This document shows, in pieces, positions 25,934 to 45,280 of a stretch of DNA of 64,000 bases. The notes beneath the pieces are model-generated. The model ran no database searches, was not told the origin of the DNA, and saw only the letters and a list, made by a program, of their open reading frames with translations. Origin of the DNA: Streptantibioticus cattleyicolor NRRL 8057 = DSM 46488 (lineage in GTDB: Bacteria; Actinomycetota; Actinomycetes; Streptomycetales; Streptomycetaceae); NCBI RefSeq assembly GCF_000240165.1, contig NC_017585.1:1736001-1800000 (forward strand). Direction: 5' to 3'. Numbering within the stretch: position 1 is the first letter of the stretch; each line of letters begins with the position of its first letter. The position numbers and the translations under genes are program-made.

Positions 25934-28705
25934 TCAGCCCACCATGCGTTCGCCCACGTCGCTGCCGGCGAAGTCCTCGAAATCCATGGTGCCGATGCCG
26001 AGGTTGCAGCTGACCTCGATGGCCGCGTCGGGCCGGATGCGGAACTGCGTGACGAAGGCCTCCTCGTCCGGCTCGAAGGGCTCGCCGTCCCACTCGGTGG
26101 ACACGGCGAGCGGCGGATGCGCCTTGTGACGCATCGTGGTGGCGTCGGCGATGAAGACCGCCCCGGGCAGGTCCGGCTCGGGCAGGGCCGCGCGTACGGC
26201 CTTGAGGACGCGTTCGGCGGGGACGCCGTCGTACGCGGGCTCGCAGACGAGGTGCGGCTCCGGGATGTTGTCCATCCACGGTTCCCCAAGCCTCGTGACG
26301 ACCTGGTTCCAGGCGTCCTCGTCGCTGAAGTCTGTACGGATCACCAGCGGGCTCAGCGTGTCGCGTTCCGCGATCACCAAGGGCGGCAGGGCGTCCCCGG
26401 TGTCGGGCGCCACGACGGGCTCCGCCGAGGGGACCGGCACACCACCGAGCAGTACACCGCCGAGCCCGGCGGCATCGGGTACCACCCCGCAGACGCGGAA
26501 CAGCAACTCGAAGCGGTGCCGGTCGCGGTCGTTCTCCGCCAGCGCGGCGGCCACCTCGGGCACCTTGACCCCTTTGCGCCGGAACGGCTGGTCCGTGAAC
26601 TCGCTCACCAGCTCGCCGCGTTGGTGAAGGGTGAACCGCGCACCGTAGCCGTTTCCGCCGGCCGGCGCGTGCACCACCGCGACCGACTCCGCCAGCACCG
26701 ACCGCGCCACCGGCAGCGTGGCATCGTCGCTGAGAACGATGACGTCCGGCCCCGCGGCGACCACCGCGACGACACTTCCCGCACCCACCGCTTCCCGCCG
26801 CTGCTGGAGCTGGCGCCACGTGCCCCGCACCACCGAGCACGGCACGACGCCGAGACGCTCCAGCACCTGCGTGGGCGAACTCTCCTCGACCACCGCGACG
26901 CAGAATCCGCGGCCCTGTCCGATCAACGCCCCGAACCAGGCGGCCAGTACGTCGTTGCGCGGCACAGCCGGCTCGCGCACCGGCGTGCCGTCGAGCCGGG
27001 CCGGGCCGTTGGCGGATGCCCAGACGACGCCTCCCGTCTCGTCGCGCAGCTCCGCAGCCCCTCGCGCCACGACCAGTTCGGTGCCCGGCCCGGCGATGCG
27101 TTCCAGCTCGGAGCCGTCGAGCGCCAGCGCGCGCAGAACGCCGTCCTCGCCGAGTTCGAGAACGTTGTGTTGGTCGTAGAACCTGTCCCAGTGGGAGGTG
27201 TGGCCCTTGACGATGCAGCGCAGGACACGGCCGTCGTGGAAGAGCACGGTCGACCCGTCAGCACTGGTGAGCGTCTGCCCGTAGAGGCTTTCGCCCCGGC
27301 GCATCCGCGATCCGCGGGCGACCGTGGGCAGTTCGCCCGACGCGGCCGGAACCTCGGGGATTCCGGTGCTCCACACGATGCCACCGTGCGCGTCGGTCAG
27401 GACCAGGTCGCCGGTGTCGCGCATCTCCAGCCGCCGCACGCCCCGCCACGCGGTGCCCGTACCCCACACCCGCCGGCCGTGGTGGTCCCAGGCGGCCAGG
27501 TCTCCGTCGGGGCCCAGGGACAGCAGGCTGAACGACCGCGCGTCGCCGACCCACACGTACGCGCGCGTGAGGTTGTCGCGTATCGCCAGTGGCGGGTCGT
27601 ACACCCCGCTCAGCACCGTGAACCGGCCCGATGGTGAGGTCGAGGACTCCATCGAGAGCGCGCCACCGAGCGGGAGCCAGGAACAACCGGGCTGCCATGC
27701 TGAGGGCGTTGTCGCGTCGTCGGGCAGTGGCTGCGACGGGATCTCCGGTGGTATCCGCATCACGCGTGTTCCGCGGCAGGCGACGGGGGAGTGGCCCGCT
27801 CGTTGCCGGTAGCCGACGAATCCGCCGCTGCCGGCCAGGAACCGGACGGCTTCGAGTTGCAGGTGCGGGGAGCCGTTGCTGCCGGTGATGTCGAGACGGT
27901 AACGGTTGTAGGCTCCGGGTCGGGCTATGCGGTACGTCCGGGACCGGTGCCGGCCGGGAAGGGACTGGCCCGTGCGGGCATCGAGGGTGCGCCACAGCCT
28001 TCCGTCCGCCGAGCCGCGCAGAGTCCAGGCCGCCGGATCGCGGTCCGGAGCGTCGTTCGCGGAGGTCAGGACGTACCGCTTCACCGGGACCGGTTGGGAG
28101 AGCCGGAAGTCCAGGGACGCATGACTGTGGGGCGCGAACCATTTGCTGCTCGAGGTGTCGACGAGGTTCGCGGCAACCTCGCCCGCGCCGTGGTGCTCGG
28201 CGCTGGCCGACACGGCGACAACGAGGTCGCTCACATCCGCGTTGCCGGTCGGACCCGCCGGGCGCAGCGTCAGCGAACACGCGTTGCCGGACCGGTCGTG
28301 CCAGGCCACCCACTGCACGGGGGCCCGACTACCGTCCTCGACCAGCACCCGCAGCCGCCCCGCGGGAATCCAGCCGTCGGCATCCCGCACCTGCGTGTCG
28401 AACTCGTATCCCTGGGCGCCCTCGCGATCCTGCTCCCCCCGCTGCTCATCGAGTTCGCCACGGACCTCCACCATGTCACCGTCGGCGGTGCGGCGTTGGC
28501 CGTAGCAGCCGGCCAGGTCGGGTGAAAAGCCCAGCGAGCACTGCGTGCCGTCCTCGGTGGTCCAGGACAGTTGCGCCAGCGCCTCGGTTCCACCGTCGTC
28601 GACGTGCACCAGCAGCCGTGCCCCTGGCACCCACGGCTCCGAGTCCCGCGCGCGCTGCCACATCCGGAACGCGAGCGCAGACGTCTGATCCGGTACGGGC
28701 CGCAC
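25934..28705 (-). CDS. Large multidomain protein: discoidin-like, bulb-lectin-like, DUF6461/DUF6924-like
   Basis: A 923-residue protein without signal peptide or membrane helix. Residues about 15-70 and 100-150 are two copies of one beta-rich unit (EPWVPGARLLVHVDDG / DGWIPAGRLRVLVEDG). Residues 170-292 resemble an F5/8 type C (discoidin) domain (WFAPHSHASLDFRL, AYNRYRLDITGSNGSPHLQL). Residues 360-450 and perhaps 480-565 look like bulb-type lectin repeats (LGPDGDLAAWDHHGRRVW, GDLVLTDAHGGIVWST). About 588-750 resembles DUF6461 (GFCVAVVEESSPTQVLERLG) and 795-923 DUF6924 (PLVIRTDFSDEDAW). Domain names are from pattern memory. The GTG at 28705 follows GAGGAGG. A cytosolic or Sec-independent carbohydrate-recognition role is possible; the function is unknown. 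Confidence 0.75.
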   Translation of the reverse strand: MRPVPDQTSALAFRMWQRARDSEPWVPGARLLVHVDDGGTEALAQLSWTTEDGTQCSLGFSPDLAGCYGQRRTADGDMVEVRGELDEQRGEQDREGAQGYEFDTQVRDADGWIPAGRLRVLVEDGSRAPVQWVAWHDRSGNACSLTLRPAGPTGNADVSDLVVAVSASAEHHGAGEVAANLVDTSSSKWFAPHSHASLDFRLSQPVPVKRYVLTSANDAPDRDPAAWTLRGSADGRLWRTLDARTGQSLPGRHRSRTYRIARPGAYNRYRLDITGSNGSPHLQLEAVRFLAGSGGFVGYRQRAGHSPVACRGTRVMRIPPEIPSQPLPDDATTPSAWQPGCSWLPLGGALSMESSTSPSGRFTVLSGVYDPPLAIRDNLTRAYVWVGDARSFSLLSLGPDGDLAAWDHHGRRVWGTGTAWRGVRRLEMRDTGDLVLTDAHGGIVWSTGIPEVPAASGELPTVARGSRMRRGESLYGQTLTSADGSTVLFHDGRVLRCIVKGHTSHWDRFYDQHNVLELGEDGVLRALALDGSELERIAGPGTELVVARGAAELRDETGGVVWASANGPARLDGTPVREPAVPRNDVLAAWFGALIGQGRGFCVAVVEESSPTQVLERLGVVPCSVVRGTWRQLQQRREAVGAGSVVAVVAAGPDVIVLSDDATLPVARSVLAESVAVVHAPAGGNGYGARFTLHQRGELVSEFTDQPFRRKGVKVPEVAAALAENDRDRHRFELLFRVCGVVPDAAGLGGVLLGGVPVPSAEPVVAPDTGDALPPLVIAERDTLSPLVIRTDFSDEDAWNQVVTRLGEPWMDNIPEPHLVCEPAYDGVPAERVLKAVRAALPEPDLPGAVFIADATTMRHKAHPPLAVSTEWDGEPFEPDEEAFVTQFRIRPDAAIEVSCNLGIGTMDFEDFAGSDVGERMVG

Positions 28706-32265: not shown

Positions 32266-32913
32266 TCACAGAATGCCCAAGCGGAGCGCGTACACGACGG
32301 CGTGCGTGCGGTTGCGGAGGTTGAGCCGTGTGACGATGCTGTGCACGATGCTCTTCACGGTTCGTTCCGAATAACTGAGCTTTGTGGCGATCTGCTTCGT
32401 GCTCCACCCGTCGGCCAGCAGGCGGAGCACTTCGACCTCTCTGTCCGCCAGGCCGGCGACGTTCAACCCGTGCGGCACGAGGACGGTGTCCCTGATGGCC
32501 TTGATCTGCTTGATCAGGGCCTGTTGCACGTCCCCGCACCGTTCGATGCCGTGGGTCACGGCGCCCATGACGGCCCGCCGCACTTCTTCGAAGCAACTCT
32601 GCTGACGGGGTAAGAAGCTCACCAGACCGAGGTCGATCGCGCGCAGGAGATGGTGCTCGGGAAGTTCATGGGCGACCATGACCACGGGGAGCGTGTGGTC
32701 CGAGGTCTCGTGCTGGACCTGTTCCACCCGGGAAAGCGTGTCCCCGGTGACCTCTGTCGCCAGTACCAGCAGGATGTCGGCGGGGAGACGCTCGGAGCAG
32801 TAGCTCGCCTGGATCTCCTTGTGCGACGAAAGCCACGAGACGGCTCCTTCTCCGGTGACCGGGTCATTGGCAAGTACGGACACGGTGATGGGTTTCACAG
32901 TCTTACTTGTCAT
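32266..32913 (-). CDS. LuxR/NarL-type regulator with degenerate receiver domain
   Basis: A 215-residue protein in response-regulator format. The C-terminal HTH is standard NarL/LuxR type: AGLADREVEVLRLLADGWST, then TKLSYSERTVKSIVHSIVTR. The N-terminal 120 residues have receiver length, but the site normally read as DVVLLD is ADILLVLATEV, so Leu replaces the phospho-accepting Asp, and the conserved Lys is absent (SFLPRQQ). It is probably controlled by ligand or protein contact instead of phosphorylation. It diverges from the NRPS cluster across 1.1 kb and is its likely pathway-specific regulator. Its codons are less GC-biased than its neighbours. Confidence 0.88.
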   Translation of the reverse strand: MTSKTVKPITVSVLANDPVTGEGAVSWLSSHKEIQASYCSERLPADILLVLATEVTGDTLSRVEQVQHETSDHTLPVVMVAHELPEHHLLRAIDLGLVSFLPRQQSCFEEVRRAVMGAVTHGIERCGDVQQALIKQIKAIRDTVLVPHGLNVAGLADREVEVLRLLADGWSTKQIATKLSYSERTVKSIVHSIVTRLNLRNRTHAVVYALRLGIL

Positions 32914-34042: not shown

Positions 34043-34429
34043 ATGGTGCCCGACGGGCAGGAAGTGGGAGATACCGCGGCGGAACAGCCACCGCGGACTC
34101 TTCCGGATAGGGAACACGCCGGGACCGCGGACGGTCCGGCACGGACGGGCCAAGCGTTGGACAACGAGGTGCGGCACTCGGTCACCCGCATATGGGAAGA
34201 CGTGCTCCGCCTGGACGATCTGGCTGCCGGAGACAACTTCTTCGAGCTGGGAGGCCATTCGCTCTCCGCTTCCCAGGTCATCTCCCGCATACGGGACTCG
34301 TTACAGGTCGAGGTGTCGCTCGCCGCCTTCTTCGAGTACCCCACGATCGCCGAACTCGCCCACTTCGTGGCGCGGCAGCGCGCACTGGCGCACGCGGACG
34401 GCCCCCGCCGGGAGAAGGGCGAGGGCTGA
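34043..34429 (+). CDS. Free-standing peptidyl carrier protein
   Basis: A 128-residue protein with a disordered N-terminus of 40 residues followed by one thiolation domain (VTRIWEDVLRLDDLAAGDNF, then FELGGHSLSASQVISRI). Ser73 in GGHSL is the phosphopantetheine attachment site. There is no adenylation domain, so it must be loaded in trans; the MbtH-A protein downstream is the obvious source. The GGHS form is typical of carriers that serve condensation domains. It ends two bases before the C-A-T gene, so the two are translated together. As first gene it is the natural starter carrier. Confidence 0.9.
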   Translation: MVPDGQEVGDTAAEQPPRTLPDREHAGTADGPARTGQALDNEVRHSVTRIWEDVLRLDDLAAGDNFFELGGHSLSASQVISRIRDSLQVEVSLAAFFEYPTIAELAHFVARQRALAHADGPRREKGEG

Positions 34430-34430
34430 C

Positions 34431-37400
34431 ATGGGCGTAGACCACTCGCCACTGGCGTCCGCGCAACAACGACTGTGGTTCCTGTGGCGGTTACGGCCGG
34501 ACGGCAACGAGTACAACGTGCCGAAGGCCACCCGGCTGCGCGGCACGCTCGATGCGGCTTGCCTGGAGCGGGCGCTCGCCCGGCTGGTCGAGCGGCACGC
34601 CGTCCTGCGGGCCACCTTCCCCTTCCTGGACGGCGAACCGGTCCTGCGGATCGCGCGGAACGCCACCGTGCCACTGGGCCGGACCGACCTCTCCGACACA
34701 CCCGCCGCAGCGCGCCACACCGCCCTGCGGGACGAGGTCGACCGGGTGGCCCTGGGCGCCTTCGACCTGGTGAACGGCCCGGTGTTCCGGGCCCAGTTGA
34801 TCCGGCTCGCCGAAGACGACCACGTACTGGTACTCGCCTTCCACCACATCGTCGTCGACGGCTGGTCGCTGGGCGTCATCGAGCGCGAACTCGCGGCCGT
34901 GTACGCCGCGAACCTCGACGGCGCCGAGGACCCGTTGCCCGTGGTGCGCCACGGGTACCAGGACCATGTCGCCGCCGAGCGGGAGATGCTGTCCGGGCCA
35001 CGCCACGCCGAGGCACTGGAGTTCTGGCGCCGCAACCTCGCCTCCGCGCCGCGGCAACTACCACTGCCCACCGACCGGCCGCACCCACCCGTCCAGAGCT
35101 ACGCCGGTGACAGCCGGGGCTTCACCGTCGCCCCCCAACTGAGCGAGCACATCAGGTCGTTGGCCGCCCGCCACCGGGCGAGCAGGTTCGTCGTGCTGCT
35201 CAGCGCCTACGCCGCACTCCTTTCCCGGCTGGCCTCGGCGCCGGAGGTGGTCATCGGCGTACCGGTCAGCGGACGGACGACGCTGGAGGCCGAAGCCGTC
35301 GTCGGCCTGTTCGTCAACATGCTGCCGTTGCGCATCCGGATCCAGGAGGGCATGACCTTCGCGGAACTGCTGCGTCACGTCCGCGACACCTTCCTCGCCG
35401 CGCACGAGTACCAGGACCTGCCCTTCCAGCGGGTGGTGGAGGATCTGCAACCCGAGCGTCTGACCTCACGCAACCCGATCTTCCAGTGCGCCTTCACCTA
35501 CGAGGAATCCGCCGGTGACGTCGGCGCGTTCCCCGGTCTGGAGGCGAGCCCCGTCCCGGTGCGGATCGAGACCGCCAAGTTCGAGCTGACCCTGCACATG
35601 GCGTGGAGTGCGGAACGGGTCGAAGGCTGGATGGGTTACCAGACCGATGTGTTCGACGGACGCACCGCGGAACTGCTCGGCGCACGTTACCTGCGGCTGC
35701 TCTCCGGGGCGTTGGCGGCACCGGACACACCGGTCGCACGACTGCCCCTGCTGGGCGCCGAGGAGGAGCGGACGGTCCTGGCCGGCGGCCCGCGACCACC
35801 GGCCGCCGACGGCGAACGCGTGGAACGGATGGTGGAACGCCACGCCCGCGAACGACCGGACGCCGTGGCGGTGCGTGCGGGGGAGCGGGCGCTGACCTAC
35901 GCGCAGCTCGACCAGCAGGCGAACCTCCTCGCCACGGTGTTGCGCGCGTCGGGCGCGGGCCCCGGAACCCTCGTCGCCACCTGCCTGCCCCGCGGCGTGG
36001 ACCTGGTGATCGCCGAACTCGGCATCGTCAAGACCGGAGCCGCCTACCTCCCGCTCGACCCGGCCAACCCGCCGCCCAGACTGGCCGCCGTCCTCACGGA
36101 AGCGGATCCGCTGCTCACCGTGGCGGACAGCGAACACACCACATCGCTGCCGACCGGGAAGATCCTCACCCTTGAGCGGATCCGGACGTCCGGCACCGTC
36201 GCCGCACCCGCGCCCGCGCCGAGCACGGACCCGGCGGACCTCGCCTATGTCGTCTACACATCCGGCTCGACGGGCCGCCCGAAGGGCGTGATGGTCGAAC
36301 ACCGCGCACTGTCGAACCTGGTCGCCTGGCACCATGAGGAGTTCGGCATCGGGCCGGGCGACCGCACCACGCTGATGGCCGCTCCCGGCTTCGACGCGTC
36401 CGCCTGGGAGATCTGGTCGGCGCTCACCGCCGGGGCCACGCTGGAGGTGCCCGACGCCGAGACCGTGCTCTCCCCCCGTGACCTGATCCGCTGGCTGGTC
36501 GCGCGGGAGGTGACCAGTTGCTTCGTTCCCACCCCTCTCGCCGAGCGACTGGCCCGCGCCGACTGGCCGGCCGAAGGCGCCCCGCGTTCCGTGCTGACCG
36601 GCGGCGACCGGCTGCGCGGAACGGGATCCGGAACGCTGCCGTTCCGGCTGGTCAACAACTACGGGCCGACGGAGAGCACGGTCGTCGCCACCTCGGGCAC
36701 GGTCCAGCCCGAACCCCACCGCCGGGGAGTCCTGCCGGACATCGGGCGTCCGATCGCGGGGGTGGAGGTCTACGTGCTGGACGCGGAGTTGCGTCCGGTG
36801 CCGGTGGGGGTGCCCGGTGAGTTGTATCTGGGCGGGGTCGCGCTGGCGCGTGGGTACCTCAATCAGCCTGGTCTGACGGCGGACCGGTTCGTGCCGAGTC
36901 CGTACGGGGGCAGGCCGGGGGCCCGGTTGTACCGGACCGGTGACCTGGTGCGGTGGCGTTCCGACGGCAGCGTCGACTTCCTGGGCCGCAACGACCACCA
37001 GGTGAAGATCCGTGGCTTCCGTATCGAGCCGGGGGAGATCGAGAACGTCCTGCGCGGCCACCCCGGGGTGCGGGACGCCATCGTCACCACCACACCGGTC
37101 ACCACCGGGTCCGCCGAACCCGCCCTCGTCGCCTACCTGGTGCGGGCGAGCCGGACGGAACACCGCACGGAATCGTGGGCCGTCCTGGACGACGACGCGT
37201 TCGCCGCCCTCCTCCGCGACCATCTGCGGGACCACCTGCCCCGCTACATGGTCCCCGGTCACCTGGTCGTCCTGCCCCGGTTCCCGCTCAACCCGAGCGG
37301 CAAGGTCGACCGCGCCGCGCTGCCGGTCCCCGAACTCGGCGGCGTGGGACGGCACGTGGGCCCCCGTGACGAGATCGAACGGGTACTGGCCGGCATCTGG

Positions 37401-37682
37401 TCCCAGGTCCTCGGCCGACAGCACAGCGACGTCACGGAGGACTTCTTCGAGATCGGCGGCGATTCGCTCAAAAGCATCCAGGTCGTCCACCGCGCGCGCG
37501 AGGCCGGACTCACCCTCACCGTCAGCCACATCTTCCACCACCCCACCATCGAGGAACTCGGGGCCCATCTGCGGCAGGAGACCGCGGCCGGCACGCCTGC
37601 GGAGCCCGTACCCGAACCGCTGGTGTCAGGCACCGCCGAGGAGCGGGCGGACAACGCCGGCCGGGAACGGGAGAGCCGGTGA
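34431..37682 (+). CDS. Nonribosomal peptide synthetase, C-A-T module (predicted Leu)
   Basis: A 1083-residue NRPS. The condensation domain (residues 6-440) has an intact HHIVVDG at 138-144. The adenylation domain (465-965) has YTSGSTGRPKG at 609-619, and its specificity residues read D655 A656 W659 F698 L722 G724 N743 V751 V752 K958, giving DAWFLGNVVK, one of the classic leucine codes. The carrier domain has Ser1012 in FFEIGGDSLKSIQ. There is no epimerase, methyltransferase or thioesterase domain. The last codon overlaps the type II thioesterase start (GTGA). In the proposed line it extends the residue on the free carrier with Leu. Confidence 0.95.
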   Translation: MGVDHSPLASAQQRLWFLWRLRPDGNEYNVPKATRLRGTLDAACLERALARLVERHAVLRATFPFLDGEPVLRIARNATVPLGRTDLSDTPAAARHTALRDEVDRVALGAFDLVNGPVFRAQLIRLAEDDHVLVLAFHHIVVDGWSLGVIERELAAVYAANLDGAEDPLPVVRHGYQDHVAAEREMLSGPRHAEALEFWRRNLASAPRQLPLPTDRPHPPVQSYAGDSRGFTVAPQLSEHIRSLAARHRASRFVVLLSAYAALLSRLASAPEVVIGVPVSGRTTLEAEAVVGLFVNMLPLRIRIQEGMTFAELLRHVRDTFLAAHEYQDLPFQRVVEDLQPERLTSRNPIFQCAFTYEESAGDVGAFPGLEASPVPVRIETAKFELTLHMAWSAERVEGWMGYQTDVFDGRTAELLGARYLRLLSGALAAPDTPVARLPLLGAEEERTVLAGGPRPPAADGERVERMVERHARERPDAVAVRAGERALTYAQLDQQANLLATVLRASGAGPGTLVATCLPRGVDLVIAELGIVKTGAAYLPLDPANPPPRLAAVLTEADPLLTVADSEHTTSLPTGKILTLERIRTSGTVAAPAPAPSTDPADLAYVVYTSGSTGRPKGVMVEHRALSNLVAWHHEEFGIGPGDRTTLMAAPGFDASAWEIWSALTAGATLEVPDAETVLSPRDLIRWLVAREVTSCFVPTPLAERLARADWPAEGAPRSVLTGGDRLRGTGSGTLPFRLVNNYGPTESTVVATSGTVQPEPHRRGVLPDIGRPIAGVEVYVLDAELRPVPVGVPGELYLGGVALARGYLNQPGLTADRFVPSPYGGRPGARLYRTGDLVRWRSDGSVDFLGRNDHQVKIRGFRIEPGEIENVLRGHPGVRDAIVTTTPVTTGSAEPALVAYLVRASRTEHRTESWAVLDDDAFAALLRDHLRDHLPRYMVPGHLVVLPRFPLNPSGKVDRAALPVPELGGVGRHVGPRDEIERVLAGIWSQVLGRQHSDVTEDFFEIGGDSLKSIQVVHRAREAGLTLTVSHIFHHPTIEELGAHLRQETAAGTPAEPVPEPLVSGTAEERADNAGRERESR

Positions 37683-38425
37683 AGAACCGATGGCTGCTGC
37701 GCTTCCCGCCCCGCCCGCAGGCACGGATGCGCCTGCTGTGCCTGGCCGGGGCGGGCGCCGCGGCGTCGATGTACCGCTCCTGGTCCCAACACCTCCAGCC
37801 CGAGGTGGAAGTCTGCGCCGTCCAGCTGCCCGGCCGCGGCGCCCGGCTGCGTGAGGCGCCGTTCACGAGGATGGAGCCGCTGGCCGACGCCCTCACCGAC
37901 GTGGTCCGGGCCGAGTCGGACCGCCCGATGGCGATCTTCGGTCACAGTCTCGGCTCGCTGATCGGGTTCGAGGTGGCCAGCCGCCTGCTCAGCACCGGCG
38001 CGGACACACCACTCCGGCTGATCGCCGCGGCACACCGGGCCCCACGGCTGGGCAGCGCGCGCCTGCCGTACCACCGCCTGCCCACGCCGGAGCTGATCGA
38101 CGTCATGGGAGGGCTCGGCGGGACACCCCCCGACCTCCTCGCGATGCCGGACGTCATGCGGCTGACCCTGCCCGCCGTCCGGGCCGACTTCGAGATCGAC
38201 TACACCTACCGGTACCGGGAACGGCCCCCGCTCCCCGTCCCCATCAGCGTGTTCGGCGGCATCGACGACACGACCGTCTCCAAGGCGGAACTGGAGGCGT
38301 GGCAGGAACACACCAGCACCGGGTTCAGCCTTCGCCTGCTACCCGGCGACCACTTCTTCCACGAAGGACCAGGCGGCCCGCGGATGCTCGCGCGGATACG
38401 CCGGGAACTCCTCCAACACGTCTGA
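37679..38425 (+). CDS. Type II thioesterase
   Basis: A 248-residue alpha/beta hydrolase of the NRPS/PKS type II thioesterase family. It has [16 protein letters not shown] near the N-terminus, [15 protein letters not shown], nucleophile Ser90 in FGHSLGS, the acidic residue in FGGIDDTTV and His in [10 protein letters not shown]. These proteins clear misloaded or stalled carriers and do not normally release the product. Its GTG start overlaps the NRPS stop by four bases. Since no type I thioesterase domain exists in the cluster, a release role cannot be excluded. Confidence 0.93.
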
Positions 38426-38462
38426 CCGGCCCGGCCGACCGCAACCGAAAAGGAGTGCCGAC

Positions 38463-40256
38463 ATGTTCGAGGACGGCGACGACCGCCGCTATCTCGTGGT
38501 GCGCAACCACGAGGAACAGTATGCGATATGGCCAAAGGACCATGAGATGCCGCCGGGCTGGGACCCGGTGGGCGTGGCCGGCAGCAAGCCGGAGTGCCTG
38601 GCCCACATCGAGAAGACATGGACCGACATGCGTCCGCTCAGCCTCCGGTCCGCGCCGGAACTCTGCCTCCACCAGGTGTTCGCCGCCCAGGTGGCGCGCA
38701 CCCCGGACGCCCCGGCCGTCCGGGACGGGCGGGAAGAACTCACCTACCGGCAACTCGACGAGCGGGCCTCCCGGCTCGCGGCCGTGATCCTGCGCCAGGT
38801 GTCCGGACCCGGCGCCCGCGTCGGCATCTGCCTGCGACGCGGCAACAACGTGGTGACCGCGATCCTGGCCGTGCTCAAGGCCGGCTGCGCCTACGTACCG
38901 CTCGACCCCGACTACCCGCCGGAACGGGTGCGCTTCATGGCCCAGGACGCCTCGGTCGACATGGTGCTGGCGGACCCCGGTACGCGTTCGGCGCCCGATG
39001 CGGCACGTGTCGTCACCGTCGAGGACAGCCTGTGGTCGGACGACGCACCCCGCGCCGACGACGTCCAGGTGGGCCCGGACGCACCCGCCTACGTCATCTA
39101 CACCTCGGGATCGAGCGGACGGCCCAAGGGGGTCGTGGTCTCGCACCGCAATGTGACCGCGCTCCTCGACGCCTGCGACCGGATCCTCGACACCGACGGC
39201 ACGGACGTGTGGACGCTCTTCCACTCCTACTGCTTCGACTTCTCGGTCTGGGAGATGTGGGGGGCGTTGTCGCACGGCGCGACACTCGTGGTGGTACCGG
39301 CCGACGTCGCCCGGTCCCCCGAGGCCATGCTCGACCTGCTGCGCGAACAACGGGTGACCGTGCTCAACCAGGTGCCCTCGGTGTTCCGGTACCTGTCGCG
39401 CGCCGCGACCGGTGCGAAGGCCACGGGAGCCGGAACGGCGCTCAAGTACGTGGTCTTCGGCGGCGAGGCCGTCGACGTCGAAGCGGTCCGCGACTGGCGG
39501 CGGGCCCACGGCACGCGCACCGAGTTCGTCAACATGTACGGCATCACCGAGACCACGGTCTTCGCGACATACCGACGGCTGCCCGCCGACGAGATCGACG
39601 CGCCGCCCGCCCCGCCCGGGGCGGACCCGTCGGCACCGGACGGCGCGGAGACCACCGGCACCCGGCGGAACCCTCCCGACCCAGCGCTCAACATCGGCCT
39701 GCCGCTGAACGGATTCGACATCGCGCTGCTCACCGAGGACGGCCTTCCGGCCCGCCCGGGAGAGATCGGCGAGATCCACCTGGCAGGCCCGCAACTGGCC
39801 ATCGGATACCTGGAGCGGCCGGAGCTGACGGCTGAGCGCTACCCCGTGCTGTCCCTGCGCGGCGAGGCCCCCCGCCGCTACTACCGCAGCGGCGACCTGG
39901 CCGTGGCCCGGGAGGACGGCACGCTGGAGTTCGCCGGACGCGCGGACGACCAGGTGAAGATCAACGGGTACCGGATAGAGATCGGCGAGGTCGAGTCCGC
40001 ATTGCGGACCGCCGAGGGCGTCGGCGATCTGGTGGTGGTCCCGACCACCAGCCGGATCGGCGAACGGACGCTCGTCGCCTTCTACACGACGACGGACGAC
40101 GGCGCACCGGACACGCTCTCCGAACGGCTGGCCGGCCACGCCAGGACCGCCCTGCCGGCCTTCATGGTGCCGAGCCGGTTCGTCAACGTGCCCACCCTGC
40201 CGCTGAGCCCCTCGGGAAAGACCGACAAGCGGGCGCTCGCCGAGCAACTGCGCTAG
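38463..40256 (+). CDS. MbtH-adenylation domain fusion, no carrier (predicted Thr-like)
   Basis: A 597-residue fusion. Residues 1-62 are a full MbtH-like domain ([42 protein letters not shown] with its conserved tryptophans 23, 33 and 53). From residue 68 a complete adenylation domain follows: [11 protein letters not shown], then [28 protein letters not shown] and LSPSGKTDK at the end. The specificity residues D259 F260 W263 N302 V331 G333 M358 V366 F367 K give DFWNVGMVFK, one change from the threonine code DFWNIGMVHK besides I/V. No carrier follows, so it must load the free carrier and/or the C-T-C carrier in trans. MbtH-A fusions are known in NikP1 and SlgN1. Confidence 0.93.
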
Positions 40257-40273
40257 CCCGTACGGGAGGACAA

Positions 40274-43200
40274 ATGGACGACAACCGATCGCGGGACCTC
40301 GACGGAGCTCGGACCACGCTGACCCAGCACCTTCCCCTGTCGGTCAACCAGGAGGCGATGTGGGTCACTTGGCAGATAGACCCCACCAAGTGGGAACACA
40401 TCATTCCGCTGGCGCTGGACGTCAAGGGCGTCCTGGACCTTCCCCGCCTGCGAGCGGCCGTCGCCCAGCTGAGCCGACGCCACCCCATGCTGCGGGCACG
40501 CGTCCGTGACGTCTCCGGGCACCTGTGCCTCGACTGGGCCGGCACCGCCTCGCTCCCGGTGACCGTGCGCGCCGTCACCGCCCCGCGCGACGAAGCGGTC
40601 ATCGCCGCCCGTTCCCCGTTCGACCTGGACGAAGGCCCACTGGCCCGGGTGGAGGTGCTGGAGGGACCCGACTACACCGTCCTGCTGATAACGGTGCACC
40701 ACATCGTCCTGGACGGCACCGCGACCCCGCTGCTCCTCGACGATCTGCGCCGCGCCTACGCGGGGGAGGACCTGGGGCTGCCGGAGGACCTCACACCACT
40801 GGTGGACCACGCCCGACGCTCACGGGAGGCCGCCGACGGGGCGATCGGCGAGGAATCGCGGCGCTACTGGCGCGACGAGTTGGCGGACATGCCACCCGCC
40901 CGCACCCTCCCGGTGCGATCCGCCGAAGGGGCGCGGGCACTGACGCCGTTCACCGTGGACGCCCAACTGAGCCGGCAGGCACGCCGACTCGCCAGGGAAC
41001 TGGGCGTCTCCTACTTCACCGTGATGCTCGGCGCCCTGTTCATCACGCTCTCCCATCACACCGGCAGCGACGACCTGATCGTCTCCGCGCCCTATCACGG
41101 CAGATCGGACAAGCGACTTGGGGAACGGGTCGGTTACTTCGTCAACGTGCTGCCGTTCCGCCAGAAGCTGTGCCCCTCCGACACCTACGAGCGGTTCCTG
41201 CGGAAACTGCGCACCACCGTGCGTGACGGGCTGAAACACGGCGACCTGCCGCTCCCATCGATCCTACGGGCCGCCCACCTCGTGGGACCGGACGCCCGTG
41301 CCCACACCCACCAGGTGGTGTTCGAGTACTGGGACACCACCAGCACCAGCGGACTGGATGTGCACCGCTTCGAACTCGTCGGCGGCGGCTCCCGGTGCCG
41401 ACTCAGCTACCTCGACTCGACGGACGTCGCCGACTACCGGCTCACGGCGCAGCTCAACGAGGGCAGCACCGGTAGCAGGATGCTGTGGAAGGACCCGGGC
41501 GGCACCGTCGGGCCCACCGCCCTGGCAGCGCTGACACGTGACTACCTGTCCATCGTGGCCGACATGGTGGCCGACCCGGGTCGCACCCTCGGCGAGGCGA
41601 CGGCACGGCTGCCCGCCGTCGTCCTCCCGGACACCGGCGGCACGGAGCCGGCCGAGGACACCGAACGCCCCCGCGAACCGGCGGGCACGGCGGCCACGCC
41701 CGCGTCGGCCGCAATGCTCGGTGAAATCTGGCGCGAGGTACTGCGGATCCCCGAGGTGTCCGCCGACGATTCCTTCTTCGAGCTGGGCGGGCACTCCCTG
41801 CTCGCCACCACGCTGCTGAACCGGATCACGGAGCGCCTCGGTGTCGAGCTGTCCGTACGCGATCTGTTCAGCCACCCCAGGTTCGGCCGGCTCGCCGAGG
41901 TCATCGACGACCGCCGCGCCGCCGCCCCGGTGGACGCGGACGACACACCGCACCCCGAGGAGACCTGGGAGGACGTCTTCCCGGCCTCGGTCTTCCAGGA
42001 GAGCATCTGGCTGGCCGAACGCCTCGACCCCGCGCACGCCAAATACCACATCCCGCTCCTGTGGAAGGTACGGGGAACCCTCGACGGTGACGCCCTCTCC
42101 CGCGCACTCGCGCTGCTGGTCTCCCGGCACGAGATCCTGCGTACCCGTTTCGTCGACAAGGACGGCAGGCTCTACCAGGAGGTCACCGAGCCCTGGGCTC
42201 CCTTGGTGGACCGGCTCGACGTGACCGCCGCCGCCGAGGCCGGCCAACGGCAGTGGCTGCGGAAGTGGTCCGACACCACCACCAGCGCCTTCGACCCCTC
42301 CACCGCACGGCTGCTCGCGGCCGGCTGGTTCTCCCTGCCGGACGGCGGCCAGTTGTTCTCCCTCTGCCTGCACCACCTGGTACTCGACGGGGAGTCCGTC
42401 CCCGTCCTCGTCCGCGACCTGGAACGTTGTTACCAGCAGGCGGCGGGCCTGGCATCCGGGCCGCTCCCGGAACCCGGCCAGTACCGCGAGCTGGTCTTCG
42501 CCCAGCAGACCGAATCAGCCCGGTCCAGAACGGCGGCGGACCTGGCGTACTGGCAAGACCACCTCTCCGGCGCCCCGGCCTCCCTCGGACTGGCCGGGCC
42601 CCGCGCCGCGGGCGAATCCGGCAACATCCCCCTGCGACTCGACGGCGACACGGCACAGCGGCTGACCGCCCTCGGCACGGAGCGGAACGCCTCCCGGTTC
42701 ATGGTGACCGCCGCGGCCTTGGCGGCGGTGCTGCACCGGGCGTCCGGGCTGCCGGACATCACCTTCGGCGTCCCGGTGGCGAGCAGGTCGGCAGGTGTCT
42801 TCGACGATGTCATCGGGCCGTGCATGAACACCCTCGTGCTGCGTTCCCGCTGCGGGGCGGAGACGACCTACTCGGATCTGCTGCGAACGGTGCGGGAAGA
42901 AGTCATCGCGGCCTTCGAGCACCAAAGCGCCCCGTTCGACGACGTGGTCCGGCGGCTACGGCCCCCACGGTCGCGAGGACGAACGCCCTTCGTCGACTGC
43001 CTGCTCAACAGCGTCGGGATGGACCAGTGGTCGGCCACGCTCGGCGACGCCCGCCTGGTCTTCCTCGATCAGGACCTGCGGGGCGAAGAAGTTAGCAAGT
43101 TCCCCCTCACCGTGACCTTCACCACGGCGCAGGACGTGGTGGAGGGGAACCTCGCCTACCGCGGCGACTGCCTCGACGCGGCAGGCGCGCTGCGGTTGAC

Positions 43201-43285
43201 GGACGAAATCACCACGGTGCTCGGTGACTTCACGGCACTGCTGCCGCGACGGGTGTTCGACGCCGATCCGACCAGGGAGCTCTGA
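40274..43285 (+). CDS. Nonribosomal peptide synthetase, C-T-C without adenylation domain
   Basis: A 1003-residue protein with two condensation domains around one carrier. C1 (20-450) has HHIVLDG at 142-148. The carrier (475-545) has Ser508 in FFELGGHSLLATTLL. C2 (565-1000) has HHLVLDG at 700-706 and NTLVLRSRC. Both catalytic His motifs are intact. Without an A domain the carrier must be charged in trans, most simply by the MbtH-A protein. C2 has no downstream carrier, so it may release the chain onto a free nucleophile, cyclise it, or act on a substrate carried elsewhere. The stop is six bases before the monooxygenase GTG. Confidence 0.93.
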   Translation: MDDNRSRDLDGARTTLTQHLPLSVNQEAMWVTWQIDPTKWEHIIPLALDVKGVLDLPRLRAAVAQLSRRHPMLRARVRDVSGHLCLDWAGTASLPVTVRAVTAPRDEAVIAARSPFDLDEGPLARVEVLEGPDYTVLLITVHHIVLDGTATPLLLDDLRRAYAGEDLGLPEDLTPLVDHARRSREAADGAIGEESRRYWRDELADMPPARTLPVRSAEGARALTPFTVDAQLSRQARRLARELGVSYFTVMLGALFITLSHHTGSDDLIVSAPYHGRSDKRLGERVGYFVNVLPFRQKLCPSDTYERFLRKLRTTVRDGLKHGDLPLPSILRAAHLVGPDARAHTHQVVFEYWDTTSTSGLDVHRFELVGGGSRCRLSYLDSTDVADYRLTAQLNEGSTGSRMLWKDPGGTVGPTALAALTRDYLSIVADMVADPGRTLGEATARLPAVVLPDTGGTEPAEDTERPREPAGTAATPASAAMLGEIWREVLRIPEVSADDSFFELGGHSLLATTLLNRITERLGVELSVRDLFSHPRFGRLAEVIDDRRAAAPVDADDTPHPEETWEDVFPASVFQESIWLAERLDPAHAKYHIPLLWKVRGTLDGDALSRALALLVSRHEILRTRFVDKDGRLYQEVTEPWAPLVDRLDVTAAAEAGQRQWLRKWSDTTTSAFDPSTARLLAAGWFSLPDGGQLFSLCLHHLVLDGESVPVLVRDLERCYQQAAGLASGPLPEPGQYRELVFAQQTESARSRTAADLAYWQDHLSGAPASLGLAGPRAAGESGNIPLRLDGDTAQRLTALGTERNASRFMVTAAALAAVLHRASGLPDITFGVPVASRSAGVFDDVIGPCMNTLVLRSRCGAETTYSDLLRTVREEVIAAFEHQSAPFDDVVRRLRPPRSRGRTPFVDCLLNSVGMDQWSATLGDARLVFLDQDLRGEEVSKFPLTVTFTTAQDVVEGNLAYRGDCLDAAGALRLTDEITTVLGDFTALLPRRVFDADPTREL

Positions 43286-43291
43286 AGCGGC

Positions 43292-44182
43292 GTGACCAGC
43301 AGGTTCCGATTCGGTGTCATCCTCGTCCCGGGTCCCGGGCGCCAGGAGTGGTGGCAGAGCTGTCGCACCGCCGAACGGCTCGGCTACGACGTCATCGCGG
43401 TCCCCGACCACCTCGGGGTACAGGCCCCGTTCCCCGCGATGGTCTCCGCCGCCGCCGCGACGGAGCGGGTGCGCCTGACCACCTACGTCCTCAACAGCGC
43501 CTTCTGGAATCCCACCCTCCTGGCCAGGGAGATCCTCAGCACGGACCTCCTCACCGACGGCCGGGTCGAGGTGGGGCTGGGCACCGGATACGTTCGCGCG
43601 GAATTCGACAAGGCCCGGGTCGAGTGGGGCACCGCCGGCAGCCGGGTGCGACGGCTGGAAGAGGCCATCGTCTCCCTGCTTGGCCATCTGGCGGATCCCC
43701 GCGGCCTCGGCTTCACGCACGCACCGCCACAACTGCCGCTGCTGGTCGGCGGAAACGGTGACCGGGTGCTGCGACTGGCCGCGGCACACGCGGACATCGT
43801 CTCGTTCGCCGGTGCGGTACTCGCGCCAGGCTCCTCACGAGGCACGTTGCGACTGATCGACGGCGACGCCATGGCGGAAAGGGTCAGGTATTTCGAGAAC
43901 GTGGCGGGCGACCGCGCCGCCCGGCCGGAACGCAACATCCTCGTGCAGTCGGTGGTGGTGACCGCCGACCGGCGGGGCACCACCGAGGCGCTGCGCCGCC
44001 GCATGCCGTACCTCACGGCCGAGCAGGTGGCCGACGTTCCCACACTGCTGATCGGGACTTCGAAGGAGATCGCGACCATGCTCCTGGAACGGCGGGAACG
44101 CTACGGGTTCTCCTACGTCTGCGTCCAGGAACGCGACATGACCGCCTTCGCCCCGGTGATCGAGCTCCTGGCCGGGGAGTGA
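43292..44182 (+). CDS. Luciferase-like (LLM class, probably F420-dependent) monooxygenase
   Basis: A 296-residue TIM-barrel flavin/F420 enzyme of the TIGR03621-like group: MTSRFRFGVILVPGPGRQEW, VIAVPDHLGVQAPFPAMVSA, GRVEVGLGTGYVRAEFD and PLLVGGNGDRVLRLAA. These proteins use F420 or reduced FMN to oxidise or reduce small molecules. It is the only tailoring gene of the NRPS cluster and is translationally close to the C-T-C gene (GTG at 43292), so it probably acts on the peptide or on an amino-acid precursor, for example by hydroxylation or dehydrogenation. The choice of cofactor cannot be read from sequence alone. Confidence 0.88.
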   Translation: MTSRFRFGVILVPGPGRQEWWQSCRTAERLGYDVIAVPDHLGVQAPFPAMVSAAAATERVRLTTYVLNSAFWNPTLLAREILSTDLLTDGRVEVGLGTGYVRAEFDKARVEWGTAGSRVRRLEEAIVSLLGHLADPRGLGFTHAPPQLPLLVGGNGDRVLRLAAAHADIVSFAGAVLAPGSSRGTLRLIDGDAMAERVRYFENVAGDRAARPERNILVQSVVVTADRRGTTEALRRRMPYLTAEQVADVPTLLIGTSKEIATMLLERRERYGFSYVCVQERDMTAFAPVIELLAGE

Positions 44183-44574
44183 CAACACACCGCTCAGCAT
44201 GGCCCTCGCGCGGCACGCTCGTTGCCGATCGTCGACCTGGACGGCGGCCTGGTCCACGTACGCCCTGGTGAAGCGGGACGTGACCGTATCCGCTGCCGGG
44301 TTGACGGGCGGCGCCGGCGACGGCCCGGGGCGGCAGCCGGGGGAGCCGGGGACCGCACTGCTCCGGCCCCGGGGCGTTCGCGCCCGAGTCCGCCGGCCAT
44401 CGTGCGCAGAACCAGCCCCATCCGGCGCCCTCATGGGTTCCCTGGCGTTGATCAGTTGTTGTGCGGTCGTGTTCGCGGCGCGAGTCGTGTTCCCGTCAAT
44501 CCGCTCCGCCCACTGGATATGACCAGGGACCCGCGCCGGAAACCCGACCACACGTGGTGAAGGGGGATGTCTTC
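44183..44574. other. Gene-free region after the NRPS cluster
   Basis: GC-rich low-complexity sequence with no recognisable gene. It probably contains the NRPS operon terminator, but no hairpin stands out. Confidence 0.35.
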
Positions 44575-45280
44575 ATGAGCACCGGGAAGCAGGGGGCGAC
44601 CGCCAGCGCGATGAGGGGCGGCACTGCGGTCCGTAACGGCGGTCGCTCCTGGTGGACGAGGGCCGCCGCCACGACTGGGCAGACCATCGCCCTGACGGCC
44701 GGCGCGACAGCACGGGTACCGGCCTTCGCAGCCGGCCACTCCACCGGCGCACGACCGGGCATCACCTGTGCAGTGCGATTCGTTCGCGGCCTGGAAGCTC
44801 TACGAGAACCTGGCGGGCCTGCAGGGCAGCGCCGCGGGCCAGACTCCTCCCGGCAGCATCCCGGCGGCCGGCTGGGTCCCCCTGGTGGCCCAACGCCGTC
44901 ACCGATCCGCAGGACGGCAACCCGCCGGACACGGTGCACGGTATCCCGGGCAGCAGCAACGGCCATGTCGGGTTCGTCTCGGACGTCTACCCAGACGGGT
45001 CGATCACCGTCGAGTCCTACAACATGCGGGAGAACGGCGCATACTCGGTCGTCCAGGTGAAGTACGACAGCGGGTACACCGACACCAGCTTCGGGCTGTC
45101 CGCCTTCGGCGTTCCGTGGCCGGGCGGCTTCACCCGCATCGGCGATTCCGACCGCAGCCCGCCACGTCGTCCCCGTCCGAGGCCGCCGACCCCGGAGTCG
45201 TGCAGTCGCTCTACCCCTCGGCCACGTGGACCGGCATCCGTCGTGCCGGAACCCGGCCGCCGGAACCAGGGACGCATCAT
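44575..45280 (+). pseudogene. Secreted CHAP-domain amidase, broken by several frameshifts
   Basis: The ATG at 44575 follows AGGGGGA and opens a signal-peptide-like frame (TGQTIALTAGATARVPAF). At about 44765 the gene continues in another frame with the catalytic-Cys segment QCDSFAAWKLYENLAG. At about 44885 it moves to a third frame with NAVTDPQDGNPPDTVHGI and the His segment GHVGFVSDVYPDGSITVESYN (44940-45010), ending PWPGGFTRIGD. Together these make a CHAP peptidoglycan amidase/endopeptidase, but no frame alone encodes it. Near 45180-45240 yet another frame reads VVQSLYPSATWTGI. At least two frame changes make assembly error alone less likely. Confidence 0.72.

Follow-up and report, generated by a model that had tools for sequence, protein, structure and literature searches.

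A pepstatin-type gene cluster of Streptantibioticus cattleyicolor, probably contracted by recombination between pepB and pepD

The window analysed here is a stretch of 64,000 nucleotides of Streptantibioticus cattleyicolor NRRL 8057 (contig NC_017585.1, positions 1,736,001 to 1,800,000). Within it lie six genes for nonribosomal peptide synthesis that the initial annotation had described as co-directional and nearly overlapping, and their coordinates, order and location on the + strand were all confirmed in the window sequence, with intergenic distances, from the first gene to the sixth in turn, of 1, -4, 37, 17 and 6 bases. The features are given below under the names of their pepstatin (pep) counterparts.

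32266..32898, - strand: probable pepJ counterpart, a LuxR-type regulator with a GerE domain, 68-74% identical to the gene adjoining pepA in most related clusters
34043..34429, + strand: PepA, free carrier protein (PP-binding, motif GGHSL), 49-67% identical to PepA of related clusters
34431..37682, + strand: hybrid C-A-T protein, with C domain and A-domain Leu pocket of PepB type and A-domain C-terminus and carrier of PepD type
36741..37214, + strand: crossover interval of the pepB/pepD hybrid in the A6-A8 region, bounded by the switch of diagnostic sites from residue 770 to 929
37679..38425, + strand: PepE, type II thioesterase (PF00975), 58-70% identical to PepE of related clusters
38463..40256, + strand: PepF-PepG, MbtH protein fused to a stand-alone A domain with a Thr-like code, Val being proposed in the main text on pep (PMC12081711)
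40274..43285, + strand: PepH, C-T-C protein without A domain, as assigned from the domain scan and from relatives
43292..44182, + strand: PepI, F420H2-dependent ketone reductase (match to kvPepI, 9G64, E = 6e-112)

Pfam and NCBIfam models detected PP-binding in the first gene, Condensation, AMP-binding and PP-binding in the second, Thioesterase in the third, MbtH and AMP-binding in the fourth, Condensation, PP-binding and Condensation in the fifth, and Bac_luciferase in the last. Domain and motif scans bear out the earlier count of three carriers and three C domains against two A domains, with HHxxxDG intact in all three C domains and GG(H/D)SL in all three carriers; as two A domains serve three carriers, loading in trans is indeed required. 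The first C domain of PepH gave an additional partial match to the acyltransferase PapA5 model. The specificity code of the C-A-T protein is DAWFLGNVVK, identical in 9/9 PepB proteins compared, and that of the MbtH-A protein is DFWNVGMVFK. We take these, following established code-to-residue assignments, as a Leu code and a Thr-like code, respectively, in agreement with both earlier calls. The last gene had been read as a luciferase-like monooxygenase; the luciferase fold stands, but the protein groups with the F420H2-dependent ketone reductase PepI and not with oxygenases. More specifically, its top NCBIfam model is TIGR03621 (F420-dependent oxidoreductase; 321 bits versus a cut-off of 213), and it aligns to the crystallised homologue kvPepI (9G64), keeping the equivalents of His62, Tyr122, Glu126, Gln229 and Gln289. 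Around the cluster, an apparent broken gene spread over two frames, which we take to resemble a CHAP-type amidase, lies downstream of pepI (window 44573-45280), and the - strand at 25934-28663 encodes a large protein that combines an OAA-family lectin domain with DUF6924.

In 2025, Mo et al. characterised the pepstatin cluster (pepA-J) in Streptomyces catenulae DSM40258 (PMC12081711). According to the main text of that study, it encodes a PCP (pepA), a C-A-PCP for Leu (pepB), a KS-AT-ACP (pepC), a C-A-PCP for Ala (pepD), a thioesterase (pepE), an MbtH protein (pepF), an A domain (pepG), a C-PCP-C protein (pepH), the F420H2-dependent ketone reductase (pepI) and a LuxR-type regulator (pepJ), and pepstatin is acyl-Val-Val-Sta-Ala-Sta (PMC12081711). 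PepG, which is predicted to activate Thr, is proposed there to activate Val and to load it twice in trans, once on PepH and once on PepA; the chain would begin on PepH, whose second C domain would hand acyl-Val to PepA, PepB would follow, PepE would release the product and the PepD carrier would return its chain to the PepB C domain (PMC12081711). These steps are mostly proposals in the main text, and what is shown comes from deletions of pepD, pepI and pepJ and from PepI biochemistry (PMC12081711). The same text describes a "third subtype" among pep-like clusters, in which homologues of both PepC and PepD are lacking; the authors doubted that statine is produced there, and the text assigns this subtype neither origin nor product (PMC12081711).

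The six window genes match pepA, pepB, pepE, a fused pepF-pepG, pepH and pepI, but neither pepC, the PKS gene, nor the NRPS gene pepD has a counterpart in the cluster. Compared with the pepstatin cluster through its published description alone, the window has a free PCP followed by a Leu C-A-PCP, the thioesterase, MbtH, a Thr-predicted stand-alone A domain beside an A-less C-PCP-C protein, a PepI-type reductase with His62, Tyr122 and Gln229, and a LuxR-type gene, which is conserved beside pep clusters and is the probable pepJ counterpart. It differs by the fusion of pepF to pepG, by its hybrid C-A-T gene and by two absences: the KR-less PKS PepC that adjoins pepB in statine-making clusters is missing from the cluster, the genome and a second record of the replicon, and the separate PepD (Ala) module is gone, its C-terminal part alone surviving inside the hybrid. 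With pep genes present and PepC and PepD homologues missing, the window layout agrees with the third subtype as far as the main text goes (PMC12081711). The earlier view that the layout lacked a known match is thus overturned, since Mo et al. already describe both the pep cluster and the third subtype (PMC12081711). We regard the locus as probably a contracted pepstatin-type cluster, in which the hybrid gene and its account of origin are new.

The pep proposals also bear on the assembly line that had been drawn for these genes, in which the free carrier bears Thr, C-A-T adds Leu, C-T-C brings in Thr again and a final C domain releases or cyclises the product. The Thr-like A code speaks for this order. 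However, the stand-alone A domain of pep is likewise Thr-predicted, and the pathway proposed for the same genes begins with acyl-Val-Val and needs no Thr; it starts at PepH, the C-T-C protein, passes acyl-Val to PepA by way of the final C domain and leaves release to PepE (PMC12081711). We consider the Thr-Leu-Thr line barely credible.

Related clusters were collected by PepI-based searches of overlapping sets (395 genomes of Streptomycetaceae, 70 of the genus of G231, 393 of the genus of G298 and 395 of the class), and the search of the 395 genomes of the class gave no further pep clusters. The same gene order, with mostly 53-76% identity, was found in 13 related clusters of other Streptomycetaceae, all with pepC and pepD; for two of them, in G073 and G257, the assembled sequences contain frameshifts. 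In relatives, the C-A-T and thioesterase genes are usually separated by a KR-less PKS gene and another C-A-T gene. The complete pep clusters of cis-AT and trans-AT type (L092 of S. parmotrematis; L131-L133, L135, L137 and L139; L136, L138 and L159), whose other genes are orthologous to those of the window at mostly the same identities, retain both pepC and pepD, located between pepB and pepE, unlike the window. Among the 14 pep-type clusters examined, the contraction survives scrutiny in the window alone, and in a PepI tree the window cluster is nested among PKS-bearing clusters, making the PKS-less state a derived one. MbtH and A domain are separate genes in the complete clusters, whereas they are fused in the window; the exception is the complete cluster of G267 (L139:13237-15030), so the fusion is not tied to the loss of pepC.

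Two further groups of homologues came to light. PepI relatives with 53-54% identity lie outside pep clusters (L140:591-1481, L141:17973-18872 and L142:590-1495), with neighbors of similar size in the three genomes. C-T-C proteins also form a second group at some distance from PepH (about 42-44% identity); most of its members adjoin a stand-alone A domain, and asparagine-synthase-like and/or acyl-CoA-dehydrogenase-like genes lie nearby (L082:9972-14617, L083:8144-19499, L084:10413-17294, L085:4337-11301 and L087:3-5482).

The double origin of the C-A-T gene lay beyond the reach of the initial annotation. We aligned the window protein with nine PepB and ten PepD proteins and scored the sites that distinguish the two. 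Among the 121 diagnostic sites that precede or include residue 770, 110 are of PepB type, 3 are of PepD type and 8 match neither, while from residue 929 on all 19 are of PepD type, and sliding identity along the protein follows the same switch. At the level of sequence, the window C-A-T gene is therefore a clean pepB/pepD hybrid joined within the A6-A8 stretch. In nine full clusters (L131-L133, L135-L139 and L077/L092), a stretch of about 360 bp matching residues 781-900 of the window protein has stayed similar in the pepB and pepD genes of the same cluster. The mean DNA identity of pepB and pepD within a cluster is 0.90 over residues 781-840 and 0.85 over residues 841-900, versus 0.81 and 0.78 for pepB compared between clusters, and it falls to only 0.51-0.58 in the flanks (residues 460-770 of the preceding A-domain part and 961-1045 of the carrier part). 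Being more alike within a cluster than pepB genes are between clusters, the two stretches bear the signature of gene conversion; the pepB and pepD genes of S. parmotrematis have 394 identical bases in common. Recombination within this A6-A8 stretch would give exactly the gene set of the window with the Leu pocket kept. Considering these results, the locus is probably a pep cluster in which recombination within the stretch common to pepB and pepD removed the 3' portion of pepB, the entire pepC gene and the 5' portion of pepD, and which would make a different, simpler peptide without statine.

A repeat of this kind may also mislead assembly, and the contraction could be an artefact in which pepC, together with portions of pepB and pepD, dropped out of a full pep cluster by collapse of the repeat, whose identical run reaches up to 394 bases. 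Exactly such a collapse was found for one of the 13 related clusters, that of Streptomyces sp. ICBB 8177 (G015), where pepC and flanking pieces of pepB and pepD occupy a 6,076-bp contig of their own (L143, G015:C5:1-6076) whose ends overlap a hybrid gene on the main contig (L078:13094-13484); this genome was accordingly rejected as a second PKS-less cluster, its pepB/pepD hybrid being false. In S. cattleyicolor, by contrast, no stray pepC piece was found, and neither contig of the genome gave a PepC orthologue. The top KS matches to PepC lie mostly in large modular PKS genes and reach 48-50%, whereas PepC orthologues show 75-86% when they come from outside Streptomyces and 58-60% when they belong to Streptomyces. 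Searches for the N-terminal part of PepD gave no match over 40% among the A and C loci of the genome. Moreover, the window PepI is 100% identical to a site in NC_016113.1 (Streptantibioticus cattleyicolor NRRL 8057 plasmid pSCAT), which we take to come from a separate sequencing project. The two records differ in length (1,809,491 bp versus 1,812,548 for the window contig), are identical over 32,888 bases that include the cluster, and both have no PepC orthologue. Six near-identical 16S loci were all resolved in one contig, which also argues against collapse. We therefore judge an assembly artefact quite unlikely and the deletion very probably real.

Apart from the deletion, the cluster appears intact, and we asked what it may still produce. 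The loss of two core pathway genes would fit a dead, decaying pepstatin cluster without product. The remaining ORFs are open, however, their motifs are intact and pN/pS is not elevated for PepE, PepG, PepH or PepI in the window cluster (0.34-0.47 for PepI, versus a mean of 0.48 among the other clusters), although a recent loss could look alike. A dead cluster is thus possible but rather unlikely. The evidence for the contraction itself can be read directly in the sequence, from the hybrid gene, from a genome in which neither pepC nor pepD was found and from the intact remainder, whereas the pathway steps below are transferred from the pep model.

By this analogy, PepF-G would activate Val through its Thr-like code and load both PepH and PepA in trans. 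The first C domain of PepH would acylate Val with a short acyl-CoA and the second would move acyl-Val onto Val-S-PepA, after which the PepB-type C domain of the hybrid would couple acyl-Val-Val to the hybrid's own Leu, and PepE would release the product. The likely products are peptides of the N-acyl-Val-Val-Leu type without statine; the isovaleryl form has a calculated [M+H]+ of 414.296. A second Leu (calculated [M+H]+ 527.380) may be added, since the carrier of the hybrid is of PepD type, which according to the pep proposal returns its chain to a PepB C domain.

With PepC missing, no beta-keto group and no statine would be formed, leaving PepI without a ketone to reduce. Against the preferred account of a contracted, statine-free line stands the retention of PepI catalytic residues and constraint, which is odd without a substrate unless the deletion is young; the pep steps on which it leans are, in addition, mostly proposals, and the pepB/pepD repeat did collapse in another assembly. 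A PKS encoded elsewhere might act in trans on the Leu of the hybrid, PepI then reducing the ketone of a statine peptide that is still made, consistent with an intact, constrained PepI and with the many PKS genes of the genome. Yet a PepC orthologue is lacking, the KS matches of at most 50% identity lie in unrelated PKS genes, and the carrier of the hybrid is of PepD type and not of the PepB type that passes the chain to PepC, making a trans-acting PKS very unlikely. PepI constraint by itself fits a young deletion, another ketone substrate and a trans-acting PKS alike.

Other product classes were considered and dropped. A Beta-lactamase2-family gene directly 3' of pepI occurs in S. sp. ICBB 8177 (L079:1793-2611) and S. 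parmotrematis (L076:8898-9716); the window has none in that position, and a beta-lactam or beta-lactone product was discarded. S. cattleya is a producer of 4-fluorothreonine, and loading of this amino acid by the Thr-like A domain was set aside, as nearly the same code occurs in clusters of other genera. Detoxin/rimosamide and ichizinone clusters had come up through common features, a PKS insertion in relatives and a luciferase-like gene, and were abandoned as pep matches gene for gene. The ichizinone cluster resembles the window in its dissociated NRPS genes, MbtH, thioesterase and luciferase-like oxidoreductase, but it is described with four NRPS modules that each have their own A domain, another order and a pyrazinone product, and a C-T-C gene is not reported for it (PMC12144821). 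Ichizinone-type clusters combine four A-bearing NRPS modules with a PKS and an SRPBCC cyclase; the window cluster has two A domains and neither PKS nor cyclase.

In summary, what had been an unfamiliar NRPS layout now belongs to a named family with a testable product, and recombination of adjoining genes in a common A-domain stretch is a possible origin of PKS-less pep-like layouts. As the same A6-A8 stretch wrongly made the cluster of another public genome look PKS-less, third-subtype entries warrant a check for collapse. More tentatively, and with the odds against it, the crossover may have created a working shorter line in which the hybrid extends its own chain to acyl-Val-Val-Leu(-Leu) and PepI is kept for a different ketone, the third subtype then representing recurrent pepB/pepD recombination (or collapse at the same place) and not an independent architecture. 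The hybrid gene is a natural case of the A-domain crossover that NRPS engineers seek to copy.
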